Part shown: positions 35,608 to 45,011 of the stretch, piece after piece
Layout of the letters: every line of letters starts with the position of its first letter
Position numbering within the stretch: position 1 is the stretch's first letter
NCBI GenBank assembly: GCA_905182565.1
Contig: CAJJCB010000027.1
Span: 62,001-126,000 of the forward strand
Source: Acidimicrobiaceae bacterium
GTDB taxonomy: Bacteria; Actinomycetota; Acidimicrobiia; Acidimicrobiales; Poriferisodalaceae
Reading direction: 5' to 3'
Length of the DNA stretch: 64,000 nucleotides
Made by a program: the position numbers and the translations under genes
Notes under the pieces: model-generated
Told to the model about the DNA's origin: nothing
The model's database searches: none
The model's input: only the letters and a program-made list of their open reading frames with translations

Positions 35608-35961
35608 TTAACAGAATCGTCCAGCATCACAACCTGCTGGATCGGTCCAAAAAACTAGTGAAGTAGCCATAGCAGCAAAAACAACTACTGCTAAGACAAG
35701 CCCAGTTATGAATAAATAACTGAAAATTTTACTATCGAATTTAAGATGCATGAAGTATGAGATTACGATCTGAAACTTTACGACCATCAAGATAAGTAAC
35801 GATGGGACTTCCAGAACTCCAAAGTCAACAAAATAAGTTAATACTTCGATAGCAGTTAACACGGCTAGAAGCAGAGCTATTTTGATGTACCCGAGATCGC
35901 TTAAACCATGGTCTTCGTGTTCGACGGTTCCCTCTACATGGGAGTCGGTGATAACATTCAT
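35608..35961 (-). CDS. Cytochrome c oxidase subunit IV-like (CtaF/CoxD) protein
   Basis: A 117-residue protein with three hydrophobic segments and an acidic N-terminus, typical of the small fourth subunit of bacterial caa3/aa3 oxidases. It follows ctaE after 13 bp on the same strand, which defines the call. It probably stabilises the oxidase; no catalytic residues are expected. Confidence 0.82.
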   Translation of the reverse strand: MNVITDSHVEGTVEHEDHGLSDLGYIKIALLLAVLTAIEVLTYFVDFGVLEVPSLLILMVVKFQIVISYFMHLKFDSKIFSYLFITGLVLAVVVFAAMATSLVFWTDPAGCDAGRFC

Positions 35962-35974
35962 CTGACCAATTCTC

Positions 35975-36643
35975 CTATGGGATTAGATATACAACGGCAA
36001 AAATTACGATCCATACAATATCCACAAAATGCCAGTAAAGACCAATTATCTCTACTGTCTCAGCCCGCTCAGCACCAATGTTGCCTCGGCTAATAAGTGA
36101 CCAAAGAGTTACTAGCATTATTATGCCGAGGGACACATGCACACCATGAAAGCCCGTCAGCGTGAAAAAGGCAGACGAGGAGATATTAGTCGTGAAGCCC
36201 AGTCCCTCACGATAAAAGCCCGTGAACTCGTACACCTGGCCCGCTATAAACACTGCCCCTAATGTGGCAGTGGTAAGCAGCCACATTTTGCAACGCTCTA
36301 TCTCGCCTCTGCCTATTGAGGTAACTGCCAACACCATCGTCAGTGAACTCATCAAAAGAACAAATGAGCTAACCGAAGTAAACGGAATGTCGAACAGTTC
36401 TGCAGCGGTGGAGCCGTCTGTATCTGGACCCACACGATTACGAAGTAAAAGATATGTTGATATCAGTGCTGCAAACAATAAACAATCAGAGCCTAGAAAA
36501 GCCCACATCGTCATTTTTTCATTACTGAGCCCCGTGGTAAGAGGGGGCACATCGTAGTCATCCCATTCAGTCGGACCATATGCCAACTGTGAGGTATTGA
36601 CCTCAGTTGCATTATCCAACGGGAGCCTCCTCCGTGCTTTCAT
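35975..36643 (-). CDS. ctaE: Cytochrome c oxidase subunit III
   Basis: A 222-residue, seven-helix-type subunit III with the usual FLGSDCLLFAALISTYLL, GQVYEFTGFYREG and GFHGVHVSLGIIM segments and C-terminal YWHFVDIVWIVIFAVVYL. It overlaps the ctaD 3' end by 32 bp. Together with CtaC, CtaD and the subunit-IV-like protein it forms the caa3-type oxidase. The ATG at 36643 gives the family N-terminus. Confidence 0.93.
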   Translation of the reverse strand: MKARRRLPLDNATEVNTSQLAYGPTEWDDYDVPPLTTGLSNEKMTMWAFLGSDCLLFAALISTYLLLRNRVGPDTDGSTAAELFDIPFTSVSSFVLLMSSLTMVLAVTSIGRGEIERCKMWLLTTATLGAVFIAGQVYEFTGFYREGLGFTTNISSSAFFTLTGFHGVHVSLGIIMLVTLWSLISRGNIGAERAETVEIIGLYWHFVDIVWIVIFAVVYLIP

Positions 36644-38636
36644 CTTTTGGTGAATCTATTAAATTTTCTGAATGGTCACCATCAGGCTCATCATGATCAT
36701 CATGATCATCACCATGCCCGTGACCTACATCTGGATCCGTATGTGGTTCCAAACTCCAGCCATATATGGCTGCGACCAATACCAATAGCCCGATACCAGT
36801 TAACCAAAGCGTGTAAATAAGCCCTAAAGCTATTAGGGGCAGCCCAGAGGCTAATACAATCGGCCAATAAGACGGAGATGGCAGGTGAGGATGTTGATCA
36901 CCTAGTTGCGCAATGGCATTACCATCTGCCACTTTACGGAGTTTACCATTCTCATCTTTCTGGTATTTTTTGTGCCAAAAATCATCTAGGTCAGTTACCA
37001 CTGGCACGTAGTCAAAGTTATGTTCTGGAGTTGGTGAAGGAATTGACCATTCTAGAGTTCTTCCGTCCCAAGGGTCAGCTGGAGATTGCTCTATTGTTCC
37101 AGCTTTGTAACCAAGCCATGTTTTTACGATGTTTATAGCGAAGATAATCATTCCGATTAAGATGACGAAGGCTCCAATTGAAACCATCAAGTTCCAGAAG
37201 TCAAAACCATCTTCTGGACCGTATCTACTGTGTCGTCTGGCCATTCCTTGTAACCCTAAAATATGCATTGGGCCAAAGGTCAAATTAAAGCCGACTAGGA
37301 CAATCCAGAAATGCCATTTGCCTAAAGTTTCATTCAGCTTGTAGCCAAATGCCTTCGGCCACCAATAATACATTCCAGCAAACAGCCCCATTAGAGCGCC
37401 ACCAAATAGTACGTAGTGAAAGTGAGCGACAATGAAATAGGTATCAGTTTGCTGCGTGTCGGCTGGCGCCACCGAATGCATTACTCCGGACAGGCCTCCA
37501 ATAGTGAACATAGATACTAGTGAGATTGAGAACATCATCGGAACGGTAAAAGTGATTTTGCCACCCCACATTGTGGCTATCCAGTTTAAAATCTTAACAC
37601 CTGTCGGAACTGCAATGAACATGGTCGTTGCAGAGAATGCGGCAACGCTCACCGGTCCAAGCCCTGATACGAACATGTGGTGAGCCCATACGCCCCAGCC
37701 CATAAATCCAATAGCAGCACCAGATATAACAATAACTGAGTAGCCAAATAGCGGTTTACGACTAAATACTGGGAGCGTCTCAGAAACAATACCAAAAGAT
37801 GGCAGTATCAGAATATACACTTCTGGATGTCCAAATATCCAAAATAGATGCTGCCAGAGAAGCGGATCGGCTCCCATACCGACATTAAAGAAGTTGGCGT
37901 CAAATGTTCTGTCCAAAGACAAAAGCACCAATGCAACAGTTATGACGGGTAATGCAAACAGTAGCAAAAACTGAACTACCAGAATCATCCAAGTAAAGAC
38001 CGGCATGCGAAGAAGAGTCATTCCAGGGGCCCGCATATTAATAATTGTCACAATCAGGTTTATCGCCCCGACTAATGACGCAATACCAGCTATTTGTAGT
38101 CCCATCGCATAGAAATCCATCCCTGCGCCAGGGCTAAACGTCACGCTGGTATTTGGAGCGTACGCAAACCAACCACCGTCAGGTCCGCCACCCAGAAACC
38201 AGCTTAGGTTGAGGAAAATGCCACCGAAAACAAAAATCCAAAGTCCTAGGGCATTCATTCGTGGGAACGCTACGTCACGAGCACCAATTTGGAGGGGCAC
38301 AATGTAGTTAGCAAATGCAGCTGCAAGTGGCATAATCACTAAAAACACCATTGTCGTGCCGTGCATCGTGAAGATTTGGTTGTATTGCTCAGCAGTTAGA
38401 ACTGTTCCATTTGGAGTTAGGAGCTGGGTCCGGATTAAGAGCGCTTCAATACCGCCCCACAAAAACCAAAACATTGCAACTGCGCCGTACATTATGCCGA
38501 TTTTTTTATGATCAACGGTAAATACCCAAGCCCTCCAACCTTTTGCATACGTTGGTCGAGCAAACGCGCCAGTAGAAGGCTTTGTCTCACCACTCTCAAG
38601 TTCGAGGATTAGAGGAGGTTCCTCTGTAATCGCCAT
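36612..38636 (-). CDS. ctaD: Cytochrome c oxidase subunit I (catalytic) with His-rich tail
   Basis: A 674-residue heme-copper oxidase subunit I. All ligands are present: H92 and H407 (low-spin heme), H405 (heme a3), H270 cross-linked to Y274, and H319/H320 (CuB). K348 fits the K-channel. After the twelve core helices come two extra C-terminal helices (HLPSPSYWPIVLASG...), a subunit-IV-like fusion seen in actinobacteria, and a strongly His/Asp-rich tail (~residues 635-655). It reduces O2 to water at the cell membrane. It lies 40 bp after ctaC on the same strand. Confidence 0.96.
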   Translation of the reverse strand: MAITEEPPLILELESGETKPSTGAFARPTYAKGWRAWVFTVDHKKIGIMYGAVAMFWFLWGGIEALLIRTQLLTPNGTVLTAEQYNQIFTMHGTTMVFLVIMPLAAAFANYIVPLQIGARDVAFPRMNALGLWIFVFGGIFLNLSWFLGGGPDGGWFAYAPNTSVTFSPGAGMDFYAMGLQIAGIASLVGAINLIVTIINMRAPGMTLLRMPVFTWMILVVQFLLLFALPVITVALVLLSLDRTFDANFFNVGMGADPLLWQHLFWIFGHPEVYILILPSFGIVSETLPVFSRKPLFGYSVIVISGAAIGFMGWGVWAHHMFVSGLGPVSVAAFSATTMFIAVPTGVKILNWIATMWGGKITFTVPMMFSISLVSMFTIGGLSGVMHSVAPADTQQTDTYFIVAHFHYVLFGGALMGLFAGMYYWWPKAFGYKLNETLGKWHFWIVLVGFNLTFGPMHILGLQGMARRHSRYGPEDGFDFWNLMVSIGAFVILIGMIIFAINIVKTWLGYKAGTIEQSPADPWDGRTLEWSIPSPTPEHNFDYVPVVTDLDDFWHKKYQKDENGKLRKVADGNAIAQLGDQHPHLPSPSYWPIVLASGLPLIALGLIYTLWLTGIGLLVLVAAIYGWSLEPHTDPDVGHGHGDDHDDHDEPDGDHSENLIDSPKDESTEEAPVG

Positions 38637-38676: not shown

Positions 38677-39882
38677 TCAGCTGGGCATCAGCGGCGGTTT
38701 GCCGCCGAGGGTTTGTAAATAACTAACGATGTCGTCGAGTTCAGGTCCATTTAGGATCTCAGCAAATGACATCATTCCCTGCCGATTTTCCGGTCGGGAA
38801 GGTTTTTGGCCAGGGGCATTTCGAACCCATTCACGAAGGTCAGCAATGTTAACTGACTGATCTTCGTTGTAAAGCTCGAAAAGACTACCTGCAAAAGAGG
38901 TGCGACTCATTAAATGAGTCAAGTTGGGAGCGACACCGGAGGCTAAATTAGCATTACCGTCTGCTGCACCTTCATAAACGCCGTTTATGACATGGCAACT
39001 AATGCAATGAACACCAAACAGATCATACCCTCGTTTAGCAGCTTCACCAGTTGGTATCGATGACTTGGCTAACTGGCTTTCCTGCCAAATTTTATAGTCA
39101 GCAGCTTCTAATGCCACTGCCCGTACTTGCATATTTGCGTGGCTTAAGCCACAGAACTCTGTGCATTCCCCATAAAAAATTCCGGGTACTGGCGAACTAA
39201 TACGCCAGTGGTGAACTCGCCCAGGTACGGCATCTTTTTTGCCATTCAATTGAGGAATCCAGAATGAATGAATTACATCATTAGATGTAATCTCAAGATT
39301 AACTTCTTGGCCAACGGGTATCACAATTTCATTAGAGGTAATAATGTCTGATTGGCCATCTTCGTCTAGGTCATAGCTAAATTGCCACCACCACTGTTGA
39401 CCGGTCACCTGGATCGTTGGCCCGTCGCCCTTGTCGTGTAAATCAAATACTGAAGGGATAGTCGCAACTGCTAGAAATAAGAGCATTACTACGGGGATAA
39501 GAGTCCACGTTAATTCAGCTTTTTTATTTCCATGTATCTGCTCTGGGAGTTCGTCAGGATCATCGCCTGGCCGAACTCGAAATTTAATAATAACGGCAAT
39601 GACAGCTGCGCCAACAAAAAGCCCGACTGCTATTGCCATCCAGGCTGAAAGACGCATTATTCCATCTATGTCCTTAGCATTCTGCCCTACAGGTTTTAGA
39701 GGATCTAAACGCCCTGAAGCACAAGATGAGATGAACAAAAGCAGTGTACCGAGAAATGTAAATCGTAGATTTCTATTGTAGAAGAATCGATTTTGGACCA
39801 TATCAGTGTCGTGAACCTCGTTAGCAAATTTGCGCTTCTTTAGAAGCTTGGCCGACTCTACGCGTTTATGCCAGCCAGACAT
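38677..39882 (-). CDS. ctaC: Cytochrome c oxidase subunit II with fused cytochrome c (caa3)
   Basis: A 401-residue subunit II. Two helices anchor it (residues ~75-150). The CuA domain has IHSFWIPQLNG and GECTEFCGLSHANMQ (both Cys, His, Glu and Met ligands). A C-terminal cytochrome c domain has CISCH and an axial Met in QGMMSFAE. An internal lipobox (LLLFISSCASG near residue 54) fits lipoprotein processing; the true start could be ATG 39801. ATG 39882 forms a TAATG overlap with the upstream membrane gene. Confidence 0.93.
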   Translation of the reverse strand: MSGWHKRVESAKLLKKRKFANEVHDTDMVQNRFFYNRNLRFTFLGTLLLFISSCASGRLDPLKPVGQNAKDIDGIMRLSAWMAIAVGLFVGAAVIAVIIKFRVRPGDDPDELPEQIHGNKKAELTWTLIPVVMLLFLAVATIPSVFDLHDKGDGPTIQVTGQQWWWQFSYDLDEDGQSDIITSNEIVIPVGQEVNLEITSNDVIHSFWIPQLNGKKDAVPGRVHHWRISSPVPGIFYGECTEFCGLSHANMQVRAVALEAADYKIWQESQLAKSSIPTGEAAKRGYDLFGVHCISCHVINGVYEGAADGNANLASGVAPNLTHLMSRTSFAGSLFELYNEDQSVNIADLREWVRNAPGQKPSRPENRQGMMSFAEILNGPELDDIVSYLQTLGGKPPLMPS

Positions 39883-40679
39883 TACCGAACCACAATCCTA
39901 GCGGGATTAAGGGCTTGAGAATGCTCTTCATAATCAGTAGCTTCAGAGTCGTTTTCATGCTCTATATCTTCATCCTGATGCACTTCGTGAGGATGAAAGT
40001 CTCGTTCACCAATCGCAGCCGACGTTATACCGGCAACAATTAAGCCTGCTCCGGCTGCAACTAACGCCGTAGCGACAATGGCTCGCCGTATCTCTGGCTT
40101 AGCATAAAGCACAAATGCGAATGCCAGAACTAGTGATGAAAGCCCTAAAGCAATCCAACTTGCATTGTTTCTACTGGCTGCCAGAAATACTCTAGAGATC
40201 AGCAAAACCGGTATTGCAATACTTAATGCCCCATAAAGAGGGATTTCGAATGGAGCAATTAATCTGTCTCTCTCAGTGGCGTTTGCAACCTGATCTTTGG
40301 AAAGCCGGTCGGCCCAGGCGCTTACAGTCCATTCGACCGAAGCGGTAATAATAGTTGCGAGGCCAAGAATTGCTATAAATCCATCTGTTGTCAGGCCAAC
40401 CATTAAAAGTCCGAGACCAAAAGCTGACATAACCGGCCAGTAGGCAGGAGTCGCCGGGTAGGAGTGAGATCGTTCACGATCTATAGAGTCATTGTCCCCT
40501 AAGGACAACGCCAATGCAGTTAAAAGTGCAAAGGCAGCAGCAGCTGTGCCTAGCACGATGGTTCCGAACATCACTACATGACCTGTCTCATCGAGACCAG
40601 TCACAATCCCGAGTATTATTGCTGCCGCTGCGGCCACTGCTATGCGGCCGGCGAAATATCTACTTGCTATGCCGAGCAT
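39882..40679 (-). CDS. Oxidase-linked membrane protein, subunit-IV-like with His/acid tail
   Basis: A 265-residue protein with about seven hydrophobic segments. Residues ~75-110 (TPAYWPVMSAFGLGLLMVGL) resemble the subunit-IV-like (CtaF) segment fused to the C-terminus of CtaD here. The tail (~225-255) is rich in His, Asp and Glu. Its stop codon shares bases with the ctaC start (TAATG), and it sits between the ligand-less oxidase genes and the normal ones. It is probably a stabilising or copper-handling part of the same membrane complex; no known family is certain. Confidence 0.65.
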   Translation of the reverse strand: MLGIASRYFAGRIAVAAAAAIILGIVTGLDETGHVVMFGTIVLGTAAAAFALLTALALSLGDNDSIDRERSHSYPATPAYWPVMSAFGLGLLMVGLTTDGFIAILGLATIITASVEWTVSAWADRLSKDQVANATERDRLIAPFEIPLYGALSIAIPVLLISRVFLAASRNNASWIALGLSSLVLAFAFVLYAKPEIRRAIVATALVAAGAGLIVAGITSAAIGERDFHPHEVHQDEDIEHENDSEATDYEEHSQALNPARIVVR

Positions 40680-40686
40680 CGTTCTC

Positions 40687-41280
40687 CTACTTGACCACGT
40701 ATACGGCGTACCAGGTAGCAGTCCAAGCGACCGCTACAAAGTCCCAAAAAAACACTGCCGAGCCAAGTGGCGTGCTTCCATGCTGACCAACACTTCCGCC
40801 TACTGATCTAAGTCCCATCAAACCTAGATATATCAGACCGACGACTACTAAGGCTAAAGATAACCCAGTGGTTGCGAATGCAAGGTTTGGGTACTCCCCC
40901 GAACCTATTTCTAATTCCATTCGATTAAGACTATAAATAACCATATTCACAAAACCGAGACCAAGCACAATTGTGGTTGCTATGGCTGTCCAAGCATGTG
41001 CTGTGTCTCGTCGTCTACTAGCCCATAGTGCCCAATGAGCGGTGACTATAGATGTATACAAAGTCAGGAGAGCATAATCGAACTGAGGGTTAGGAACTTT
41101 CAATCCATTTAACCATTCGCTTCCAGGGTGAATACCTGAAGCATGGCGCCTCGCCATATACATAGCTAACGCGCCAGCGATCATCATTGCCGCAGCAGCT
41201 ATGGCAAAACCCGTCGCTACAAATTGAGCTCTCGGACGCTGAGGTTCCCCCGAAACAAGAGTTGGTGTGTTATCAGCCAT
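40687..41280 (-). CDS. Degenerate cytochrome oxidase subunit III-like protein
   Basis: A 197-residue, five- to six-helix protein that aligns along its length with CtaE. ALLTLYTSIVTAHWALWAS, GLGFVNMVIYSLNRMELEIGSGEYPNLAF and a C-terminal FFWDFVAVAWTATWYAVYVV correspond to the CtaE blocks. The conserved His residues (F-H-G-V-H-V) and other subunit-III residues are lost. ATG 41280 overlaps the ligand-less subunit I by 8 bp. It likely forms an inactive partner complex with that protein. Longer in-frame starts lack support. Confidence 0.72.
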   Translation of the reverse strand: MADNTPTLVSGEPQRPRAQFVATGFAIAAAAMMIAGALAMYMARRHASGIHPGSEWLNGLKVPNPQFDYALLTLYTSIVTAHWALWASRRRDTAHAWTAIATTIVLGLGFVNMVIYSLNRMELEIGSGEYPNLAFATTGLSLALVVVGLIYLGLMGLRSVGGSVGQHGSTPLGSAVFFWDFVAVAWTATWYAVYVVK

Positions 41281-42967
41281 TAGACGCCGCCTCCTCAGCC
41301 TCGGCAATATCCAATAATGGTGTACCTGAGCTAAGGTCCTGCAATTCTGCAAGCTGGCCCATAGCAGGAGGGGAAGAAAGTAACCATTCCGGTGACTGTC
41401 CGGACCACGGATCGTCAGTGGCTTCCATACCTTTTTTCAGAGTTATTGAAACAAACATATTGAGCAGCAGGAGTGCTACCCCAGAAAGAACTATCAAAGT
41501 TCCTACAAGTCCAAGCGCACTGAGTCCTTCAGCACCTGAGTCATCAACCAAATTTGAATATATTGAAGTCATTGAGGGATCTTGGTACACGAAATCAGGT
41601 TGGTCCGTAAGTAGCCCAGACAAGAATGGTCCCACAGATGCTAAAAAGGCTCCACCTGCAATCACTAAAAAGTTTAGTTTGCCAAGAAGCTCATTTAACT
41701 GGCGACCCCATATCTTCGGCGCCCACCAATGAACTGCTGCAAGGACGCCAAGGAGACCGGCTCCATAAATCATTACAGATTGTTGACCAGTCACCCAGGT
41801 GGTCATTCTAAGTTGAGCATTGCCTAAGTTTCCGCGATCCCCAATTTCTAACCAGTCAACTGCAGCTCCTATAAAGCCACATAAAGCTCCGGTTAATAGG
41901 AATTTTCCTGCACCAAGCGATGCTAATAACGAGGTCGTTATCTCGGGGACCTTGCGATTTTGCATTAATGTTTGAACCAGTGCTAACCCAATAAGGGCAA
42001 GAAGCCCCGTAATCGCAAGTAGTGCTCCGCCATACATTGCAACAAGAACAATGCCTTCGGCGCCATCAATTATGTCAGAGCCTTCATTGGTTATGGCAAA
42101 ATTTGCCCACGCCCCAAATCCGAAAAGCCCTAGAAGACCAATAGTGAAATACATCGCTAACGGCTCAAATACTCTTCGTTTAGCTGAAGCAAGCACTACT
42201 TCACTGGCTATGCCGAGAACTGGTACCGAATACATAAACAATTGAGGGGCTCGATAAAGCCAGTCAATTCGTTCCCAAATACCAAAATTACCGCCGAGAA
42301 AAACTCTCCCATATCGGTGATCAACGTAAAGTATTACTAGTTGCCCCAACAGCACAGGCAGACTAACTACAAGCATCGACGCCGTAACCAGAGCCGACCA
42401 CGAATACGGCGGGGTCGTATCCATATACAAACCCGGAGAGCGCATTGTCATAGCTGTGGCGCCGATTACGACGGCACCAATTAAGAGGCCGACGACCAAA
42501 CCTCCAACGGCCAGCATGTGCAGGTCGACCAGATCAGAGTTACCGCCATAAGGTCCACCGTTACCGATATAAGCACCAAACAGAACCCCAGCAGATACAA
42601 GCCAAACCCAATATGAAGCTGCTGCGGCTCGAGGAAACGCTAGATTCCCAGCACCTATTTGCAATGGCACGATGTACATAGAGAAACCGAGAAAAATCGG
42701 AATTAAGAAAAGGAGAACTAACGTTTCACGTGACAGCGCAAATAGTTGACCAAATGAGTCTCCATCGAGAACAACAAAATCAGTTCCAGATGTGAGGTCA
42801 ATACGAACTATGACATCGAGAAGTACACCCACCAGCAACATAATGATTGCGCTGACGATATAAAGGCGCCCAACCCTCTTATGGTCCGCAGTTGTAAGCC
42901 AACCAAACGGAGTGGGATCTTCACTTGTTGTGATAGCTGTCGCCATATCTGTATTTGTTCCGGTCAT
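41273..42967 (-). CDS. Ligand-less heme-copper oxidase subunit I homologue (pseudoenzyme)
   Basis: A 564-residue, about twelve-helix protein clearly homologous to CtaD (MYIVPLQIGAGNLAFPR matches YIVPLQIGARDVAFPR; HWWAPKIWGRQLNELLGK matches YWWPKAFGYKLNETLGK). Every cofactor ligand is changed: heme His to Ser79, CuB His to Ala240, cross-linked Tyr to Phe244, CuB His pair to N289-F290 and the H-F-H heme pair to G394/Q396. It cannot bind hemes or CuB in the usual way. First of a seven-gene oxidase operon. Role unknown: assembly, supercomplex scaffold or ion channel are possible. Confidence 0.9.
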   Translation of the reverse strand: MTGTNTDMATAITTSEDPTPFGWLTTADHKRVGRLYIVSAIIMLLVGVLLDVIVRIDLTSGTDFVVLDGDSFGQLFALSRETLVLLFLIPIFLGFSMYIVPLQIGAGNLAFPRAAAASYWVWLVSAGVLFGAYIGNGGPYGGNSDLVDLHMLAVGGLVVGLLIGAVVIGATAMTMRSPGLYMDTTPPYSWSALVTASMLVVSLPVLLGQLVILYVDHRYGRVFLGGNFGIWERIDWLYRAPQLFMYSVPVLGIASEVVLASAKRRVFEPLAMYFTIGLLGLFGFGAWANFAITNEGSDIIDGAEGIVLVAMYGGALLAITGLLALIGLALVQTLMQNRKVPEITTSLLASLGAGKFLLTGALCGFIGAAVDWLEIGDRGNLGNAQLRMTTWVTGQQSVMIYGAGLLGVLAAVHWWAPKIWGRQLNELLGKLNFLVIAGGAFLASVGPFLSGLLTDQPDFVYQDPSMTSIYSNLVDDSGAEGLSALGLVGTLIVLSGVALLLLNMFVSITLKKGMEATDDPWSGQSPEWLLSSPPAMGQLAELQDLSSGTPLLDIAEAEEAASNG

Positions 42968-43128: not shown

Positions 43129-44043
43129 TTAAATGCCCTCGCTTACTAGGACGTCCACGGCCATTGCTATAAACAGCAGCCCAAGATAGCTAATTGAATA
43201 ATGAAAAACCTTCATGGCTTGAGCCATTGTCGGTCGTTTTAACAGCAAAACGGTGTGCCATAAAAAGATACCTCCGAATATGACAGAAGCAGCTAAATAG
43301 ATAAAACCAGTTTCTAAAACAAAGTAAATCCAAATCGAAAGAGCAAGGACAACAATTGTGTAACAAATCATTTGGATTGCAGTACTGCGGATACTTGAAA
43401 CTACTGGGAGCATGGGTACATCAGCTGCTTTATAGTCCTCAGCATATTTGATTGCTAAGGCCCAAAAATGTGGTGGAGTCCAAAAAAAGATCACTGCGAA
43501 AAGCAACCATGGGGCCAAAGAGAGGCTATTCGTGACAGCTGCCCAGCCAACTAAAGCTGGTACAGCTCCTGCTGCTCCTCCGATGACAATATTTTGTTTT
43601 GAAGTTCTTTTAAGCCATAGCGAATATACAAACACATAAAAAAGAGTGGCGCTTATCGCTAAAAGGGCCGACAATAAATTCACCGCTAACCATAAAAGAA
43701 CAAACGCAGCAACTTCTAGTAAAAGCCCAAATAGCAGTGCAGATCTGGGGGTTACGGCTCCAGTGACAAGAGGGCGCGCCTGGGTTCTCACCATTAATCC
43801 ATCGATATCTCGATCGATGTACATATTAAACGTGTTTGCACCACCAGCGGCTAAAGCGCCGCCCATTACCGTAACAATCATCAACCAAACACTCGGAAGA
43901 CCACGTTCGGCGACAATCATCGTCGGAACAGTAGTGATCAACAAAAGTTCTATGATCCGAGGTTTTGTCAACATGACAAACGCCCCGGCTCTGCTTGTGA
44001 ACCGACGACCAGAAATTCCGGCCACCGTCGTGGACTGGTGCAT
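43129..44043 (-). CDS. ctaB: Protoheme IX farnesyltransferase
   Basis: A 304-residue UbiA-type prenyltransferase with the first aspartate-rich motif NTFNMYIDRDID and the second region YSLWLKRTSKQNIVIGGAAGAVP. It adds a farnesyl chain to protoheme to make heme O for oxidase. Nine membrane helices are expected. The ATG at 44043 lies 98 bp from the divergent ctaA gene, and it lies upstream of the oxidase operon, so heme-A supply and the oxidase are clustered. Confidence 0.94.
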   Translation of the reverse strand: MHQSTTVAGISGRRFTSRAGAFVMLTKPRIIELLLITTVPTMIVAERGLPSVWLMIVTVMGGALAAGGANTFNMYIDRDIDGLMVRTQARPLVTGAVTPRSALLFGLLLEVAAFVLLWLAVNLLSALLAISATLFYVFVYSLWLKRTSKQNIVIGGAAGAVPALVGWAAVTNSLSLAPWLLFAVIFFWTPPHFWALAIKYAEDYKAADVPMLPVVSSIRSTAIQMICYTIVVLALSIWIYFVLETGFIYLAASVIFGGIFLWHTVLLLKRPTMAQAMKVFHYSISYLGLLFIAMAVDVLVSEGI

Positions 44044-44141: not shown

Positions 44142-45011
44142 GTGAAATTCAAAGGGCTATCTCCGAACACATTCCACAAAATAACTCGGTTTGCGCTTTG
44201 GTCTTTGGTGGCAATAGTAGTAACCGGTGGGGCTGTTCGTTTGACTGGAAGCGGCCTCGGTTGCAGCGATTGGCCAAACTGTGAGCCTGGACAATTGGTA
44301 CCCAAAGCCGACATCCATGGCTGGGTTGAATTCGGTAATCGATTAATAACTGGTCTTGTGTCTATCGCTGTAATTTTTGCAGTCTCGGGATCATTGCTTC
44401 GATGCCCTCGCGAAAAATCTTTGACATCTTGGTCGCTAGGCCTCGTCGTCGGTGTAATTATCCAAATAGTTCTCGGGGCAATAACGGTTGCCACTCATCT
44501 TTCACCGCCGATAGTGATGGCTCACTTTCTTGTTTCTATGGTTCTGATTTGGAATGCAGTTGTTTTAGAGACAAAAGCTTCGAATACTCGAAACACAGAA
44601 AAAATAACTCTTCCATACACAAAAATGCACTGCTGGCTAATCGGCACCATGACCGCAATAGTGGTATTTACCGGAACAATTGTTACTGCTTCCGGTCCCC
44701 ATGGCGGTGATGAAAACGTCAATCGTCTTAATTTTGAATTACCAGATGTCGCTCGTATCCATGGCGTTTCTGTATTTTTACTAGTTTTCTTTCTTGTAGG
44801 ACTTAATATTCGGCTTAAAAGTACCCAACAAAAAAATCTCTATCAGAGCACAAAAACAATGCTTATTGTAGTTGTCGCTCAAGCAGCAATCGGTTACGTC
44901 CAGTACTTTAACCAGCTCCCACCATTCCTAGTGGCATGTCACATAGCAGGAGCTACAGCGGTTTGGATTAGTTCAGTTCGTCTAGTGCTAAAATCCATCA
45001 CAGCTAACTAA
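44142..45011 (+). CDS. ctaA: Heme A synthase (COX15/CtaA)
   Basis: A 289-residue membrane protein with eight helices. It has a Cys pair in the first outside loop ([16 protein letters not shown]) and conserved His ligands ([27 protein letters not shown]). CtaA oxidises heme O to heme A. GTG start at 44142. It is divergent from ctaB, completing heme-A synthesis next to the oxidase locus. Confidence 0.93.

Follow-up and report, generated by a model that had tools for sequence, protein, structure and literature searches.

Why should an oxidase operon encode, ahead of its catalytic subunits, a second subunit I in which no heme or copper ligand is left? The question is raised by the 64,000-nucleotide stretch of Acidimicrobiaceae DNA analysed here (the window), where an unbroken reading frame of 564 codons, starting with ATG on the minus strand, specifies such a protein (pCtaD, Table 1).

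A second set of oxidase subunits upstream from ctaC

The similarity of pCtaD to the CtaD protein of the same locus, on which the initial annotation had relied, was confirmed by BLASTP (25% identity over 531 columns, E 4e-48). The COX1 family profile (PF00115) gives the protein 160.8 bits (cut-off 34.8), which places it within the superfamily; with the subunit I equivalog model TIGR02891 it scores 208.7 bits, below the cut-off of 670.75. Structure prediction, which had been proposed as a check, yielded an AlphaFold model with 12 helices (pLDDT 90.5, pTM 0.93), a predicted fold to be read with the presence of some true CtaDs in the AF2 input alignment in mind. A-type subunits I are the closest structures found by Foldseek with this model, at TM values of 0.7-0.8 (0.81 for M. 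smegmatis 6adq_F). By descent and fold, pCtaD is a member of the heme-copper superfamily; judged from its sequence, it is not an oxidase by any functional criterion tested.

Overlooked at first was that pCtaD opens a pseudo-module of three genes, pCtaD-pCtaE-pCtaF (I', III', IV'), lying immediately upstream from a complete ctaC-D-E-F operon for a caa3-type oxidase. Gene pCtaE begins inside pCtaD, with which it shares 8 bases. Its product matches PF00510 with 33.1 bits (cut-off 23.8; relatives reach 7e-15) and the local CtaE with an E value of 5e-4, an assignment that the family alignment supports; with the actinobacterial model NF050119 it scores 50.2 bits where 190 are required. Seven bases further on begins pCtaF, which overlaps ctaC by 1 base and whose product has additional C-terminal helices and a His-rich tail. 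The best match of pCtaF in the PDB is a weak one, to the fold of M. tuberculosis CtaF (8hcr_H, prob 0.99, E 0.048), and similarity to the CtaF-like tail of CtaD extends over its residues 71-124 (E 1e-5). Profile PF12270 gave no hit with the window protein and 16.4-24.6 bits with its relatives, against a cut-off of 26.9.

Table 1. Features of the oxidase locus (positions in the window) and of related loci (locus:positions)
Feature	Position	Strand	Basis or remark
ctaF, subunit IV	35608..35961	-	PF03626 / TIGR02229
ctaE, subunit III	35975..36643	-	PF00510 60.2 bits
ctaD, catalytic subunit I, all ligands, CtaF-like C-terminal tail	36612..38636	-	TIGR02891 688 bits, above cut-off
ctaC, subunit II, CuA domain and fused cytochrome c (caa3 type)	38677..39882	-	PF00116, PF02790, PF00034; TIGR02866 above cut-off
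pCtaF, CtaF (subunit IV)-like membrane protein	39882..40679	-	265 aa; fold match and CtaD-tail similarity
pCtaE, divergent subunit III paralogue	40687..41280	-	197 aa, PF00510
pCtaD, ligand-free subunit I paralogue, 12 TM helices (predicted)	41273..42967	-	564 aa, PF00115
ctaB-like heme O synthase	43129..44043	-	translation reading; 161 bp before pCtaD
ctaA-like heme A synthase	44142..45011	+ (divergent)	translation reading
pCtaF with cupredoxin end, full type-1 set, early branches	L074:4635-5636, L077:5555-6910, L158:9551-10525, L164:4258-5265 and others
pCtaF with family f7 C-terminal domain	L078, L084, L086, L088, L090, L091, L093, L096-L099, L104, L120
TlpA/thioredoxin-like gene between pseudo-module and ctaC	L074:5591-6232, L077:5052-5600, L147:10226-10798

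The operon thus codes for subunits I, III and IV in two sets and for subunit II once, from the single ctaC gene. Its genes are tightly packed and overlap; promoter-like sites do not exceed those of shuffled sequences, and terminator-like sites do so only moderately. Searches of the window organism's genome found neither a second heme-copper oxidase nor a bd oxidase, but did find a cytochrome b; alternative complex III was considered and rejected, the genome having no NrfD-type protein. In the ctaA-like protein, an Asn replaces the His expected in E57-x-x-H60 (E-x-x-H-R); the H60N change in heme A synthase has been reported for Acidimicrobiaceae (PMC8239418).

Ligands and channels of the window protein

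With A-type subunit I (CtaD/CoxA), pCtaD has in common the 12-helix fold, the MYIVPLQIGA and LGK blocks, a DPWxGxxxEW C-terminal tail and accompanying subunit III and IV genes. The six His ligands of metals and hemes, the Tyr, the D and K channels and R481/R482 of A-type enzymes all find no counterpart in it. Three alignments agree that none of the six His of CuB, heme a3 and heme a is kept; they were made at 25-35% identity, and the sequence contexts are consistent with these calls. Most replacements listed in the initial annotation stand (H92 to S79, H270 to A240, Y274 to F244, H319/H320 to N289/F290), the exception being the HxH of helix X, where H405 and H407 correspond to Q395 and S397 rather than to G394 and Q396. 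Residue F244 occupies the place of the active-site Tyr that in oxidases is linked to a CuB His. Further losses had escaped listing: E286 has become Q242, the equivalents of D132 and N139 in the D channel and of T359 and K362 in the K channel are replaced, and R481/R482 are gone.

The window protein contains just four His (29, 150, 217 and 413). Helices II, VI and VII of the AlphaFold model are devoid of them, which rules out that neighbouring residues supply substitute ligands, the finding that would have overturned the original reading. Taking A-type oxidases as the guide, redox catalysis, oxygen binding and proton transfer through D and K channels can be excluded for the window pCtaD, because the ligand and channel residues are gone. 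The role as an ion pathway that had also been entertained is disfavoured, since both channels are missing; of the other roles proposed at first, scaffold, assembly factor or regulatory subunit may each apply. One His, in D216-H217 (window positions ~42317-42322), is new; it lies at the end of helix V within the motif YVDHRYG, where CtaD has an Arg, and occurs in about half of the pCtaD proteins.

Nitric oxide reductases retain all six His and have Glu ligands for FeB. Their subunit NorB is, like pCtaD, a superfamily member without CuB; pCtaD goes further in being without ligands. The six His are taken to define the heme-copper superfamily, and surveys that rely on them would overlook families of this kind: they are the entry criterion of a reference HCO database, from which sequences that do not have them were discarded (PMC3084760). 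Such filtering may be one reason why the pCtaD family went unnoticed. Literature searches confined to open PMC papers found no description of the pseudo-module.

Linkage, selection and graded ligand loss in relatives

A search for homologues and for co-occurrence with the caa3 genes, as the initial annotation had suggested, showed that pCtaD directly precedes a CtaD of the long type in 66 of 66 Acidimicrobiales loci with sufficient upstream sequence; three more such CtaD genes sit at contig ends. The identical seven-gene order is found across the order, and lineages having only the other A-type oxidase are without the pseudo-module. With pCtaE as marker, the module is present in roughly 190 of 298 sampled (MAG-derived) Acidimicrobiales genomes at E 1e-39 or better; weaker scorers in families f112, f113 and f114 were confirmed at the DNA level. 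Two profiles detected no pseudo-module in 296 sampled genomes of Actinomycetota outside Acidimicrobiales. The best hits of the pCtaD profile there were rejected as genuine CtaDs with full ligands, and no score of the pCtaE profile in that sample exceeded 123 bits, typical members inside the order scoring 171-286 bits.

Two deviations from the common layout were seen. In locus L065 (G060:C84), pCtaD-pCtaE and a cut pCtaF occur with ctaC and ctaD not within reach; the layout reflects rearrangement or else a chimeric assembly, contamination of the genome being 6%. In family f112 the pseudo-module and ctaC stand about 5 kb apart (intervening blocks L158:4527-9550 and L160:4950-9930); inspection of the L158 block by eye revealed genes for a metal-type ABC transporter and for a large secreted protein.

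The proposal that pCtaD is kept by selection was borne out by pairwise dN/dS values of 0.05-0.10 (CtaD, 0.01-0.07), indicative of strong purifying selection, as well as by its conservation and co-occurrence with caa3. Nor are its frames broken in related genomes: they are intact across the clade. Values are 0.05-0.07 for pCtaE and 0.05-0.12 for pCtaF; those of the pseudo-module resemble ctaC and exceed ctaD. When the ligand columns were left out of tree building, pCtaD formed one clade (SH-aLRT 100), and the early-branching lineages matched those of the neighbouring CtaD; the trees are quick ones with long branches. As far as this branching tells, pCtaD has co-diverged with the CtaD next to it. 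Horizontal gain found no support, the branching mirroring that of the adjoining gene.

Measured against CtaD, it is the packing core that has stayed conserved: helices III and V and the cytoplasmic C-terminal tail are the best-kept parts, and VIII, VII and VI, the active-site and K-channel helices, the least; XI and IX are nearly as relaxed. The subunit contacts of A-type oxidases are established. If they hold in pCtaD, this pattern fits a protein that keeps the face for subunit III and has lost the active-site and subunit-II faces.

Ligand loss is graded among the relatives, a point absent from the initial annotation. The CuB site is complete in none of 64 pCtaD proteins; 61 have no CuB His and the others never more than one. 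The low-spin heme a pair H102 and H421 is retained jointly in 19 of the 64, mostly from early branches, and seven of these also retain the heme a3 His, while H421 never occurs without H102. As far as extant proteins record it, this distribution shows a stepwise loss, CuB having gone first, on the stem, heme a3 next and heme a last, with everything lost in the window lineage. Since intermediates with all heme His, with the heme a pair or with none are living, the loss of an active site becomes directly testable.

The lineages that retain H102 and H421 also tend to differ in pCtaF: 15 of these 19, and one of the 45 others, have a type-1 copper motif in it. There the protein terminates in a cupredoxin domain (best PF13473 match 1.6e-11) with the ligand set His...Cys-x2-His-x2-3-Met. 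With fewer lineages, heme ligands and cupredoxin had seemed perfectly linked (5/5 vs 0/43), which did not survive the addition of more. Independent contrasts number 2-3, and the association is not statistically significant; with so few of them, co-retention of heme and copper is suggestive only. In family f7, pCtaF has a conserved extracytoplasmic C-terminal domain without copper ligands, whose homology to the cupredoxin is hypothetical.

Membrane cupredoxins and TlpA have been linked to COX systems, TlpA/thioredoxin-like proteins belonging to a type with a part in CuA assembly (PMC8239418). Loci L074 and L077 are similar in that TlpA and a type-1 copper domain anchored in the membrane are encoded beside oxidase genes; they differ in that the cupredoxin of these relatives is the C-terminus of a CtaF-like protein inside a CuB-less I/III module. 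Both cupredoxin and TlpA are missing from the window operon.

Possible roles of the pseudo-module

Our preferred reading, which we hold to be probable, is that caa3 is accompanied by a conserved half-oxidase without catalytic activity, of which pCtaD is the part resembling subunit I. A duplication of the cytochrome oxidase core, predating the split of the sampled Acidimicrobiales families, would have given rise to the I', III', IV' module, whose products the cell would make alongside its sole caa3 oxidase. In the window organism the half-oxidase would carry out no redox chemistry. Attached to the catalytic complex, it would support structure or assembly, most likely by forming the inactive protomer in an asymmetric (pseudo-dimeric) caa3, or else by offering a platform on which assembly or supercomplex formation takes place. 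It has a separate partner resembling subunit III and lacks a CuA subunit of its own, and the simplest way to read this is as a silent half on the caa3 complex. In early-branching relatives the same unit probably is, or was, an electron-transfer device running from blue copper (pCtaF) to low-spin heme a (pCtaD) and serving the adjoining oxidase.

More tentatively, and with somewhat less than even confidence, we suggest that the Acidimicrobiales oxidase is itself asymmetric, pairing a catalytic half with a CuB-less twin that was once a blue-copper-to-heme-a half-oxidase and is now, in lineages like that of the window, a cofactor-free protomer. Were this true, the enzyme would be the respiratory counterpart of pseudoenzyme heterodimers. 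A ligand-free subunit I under selection, with subunits III and IV of its own, means that the fold can be retained for a non-redox role, and it leads one to expect that widespread actinobacteria have an unusually composed oxidase. The actinobacterial bcc:aa3 supercomplex (CtaC-D-E-F with QcrCAB; 6adq, 8hcr, 7qhm) is among the solved structures nearest to pCtaD by fold, and its CtaF is the nearest to pCtaF. Unlike in that supercomplex, the window CtaC bears its own cytochrome c, and we know of no bcc:aa3 supercomplex with an inactive second subunit I set.

The main rival, rather unlikely in our estimate, is a dedicated assembly factor that would bind newly made CtaC, CtaE or CtaD, or pass on copper or heme A, and depart after maturation. 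The position of the pseudo-module at the head of the operon speaks for it, as do the TlpA/thioredoxin-like gene found between module and ctaC in L074, L077 and L147 and the His-rich tail that pCtaF has in most lineages; co-occurrence and fixed order would be compatible with a factor released after assembly, too. Yet an entire I, III and IV set with a full 12-helix fold would exceed what known assembly factors need, and in the window family pCtaD has no conserved metal-handling motif.

That the module forms an independent complex (a transporter, a sensor, a lipid or ion pathway) having only the operon in common with caa3 seems improbable. The module does stand away from caa3 in L065, and the new helix V His is common to half of the pCtaD proteins; against this, the linkage is without exception in the 66 loci, the module is missing where the long-type caa3 is missing, both proton channels are lost, and neither pCtaD nor pCtaE has a transporter or sensor domain. 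Finally, the idea of a decaying duplicate on its way to becoming a pseudogene, to which the lost catalytic residues and an evolution faster than that of CtaD might point, is refuted by the low dN/dS of pCtaD, its intactness in all sampled carrier families and its conservation since a deep common ancestor.
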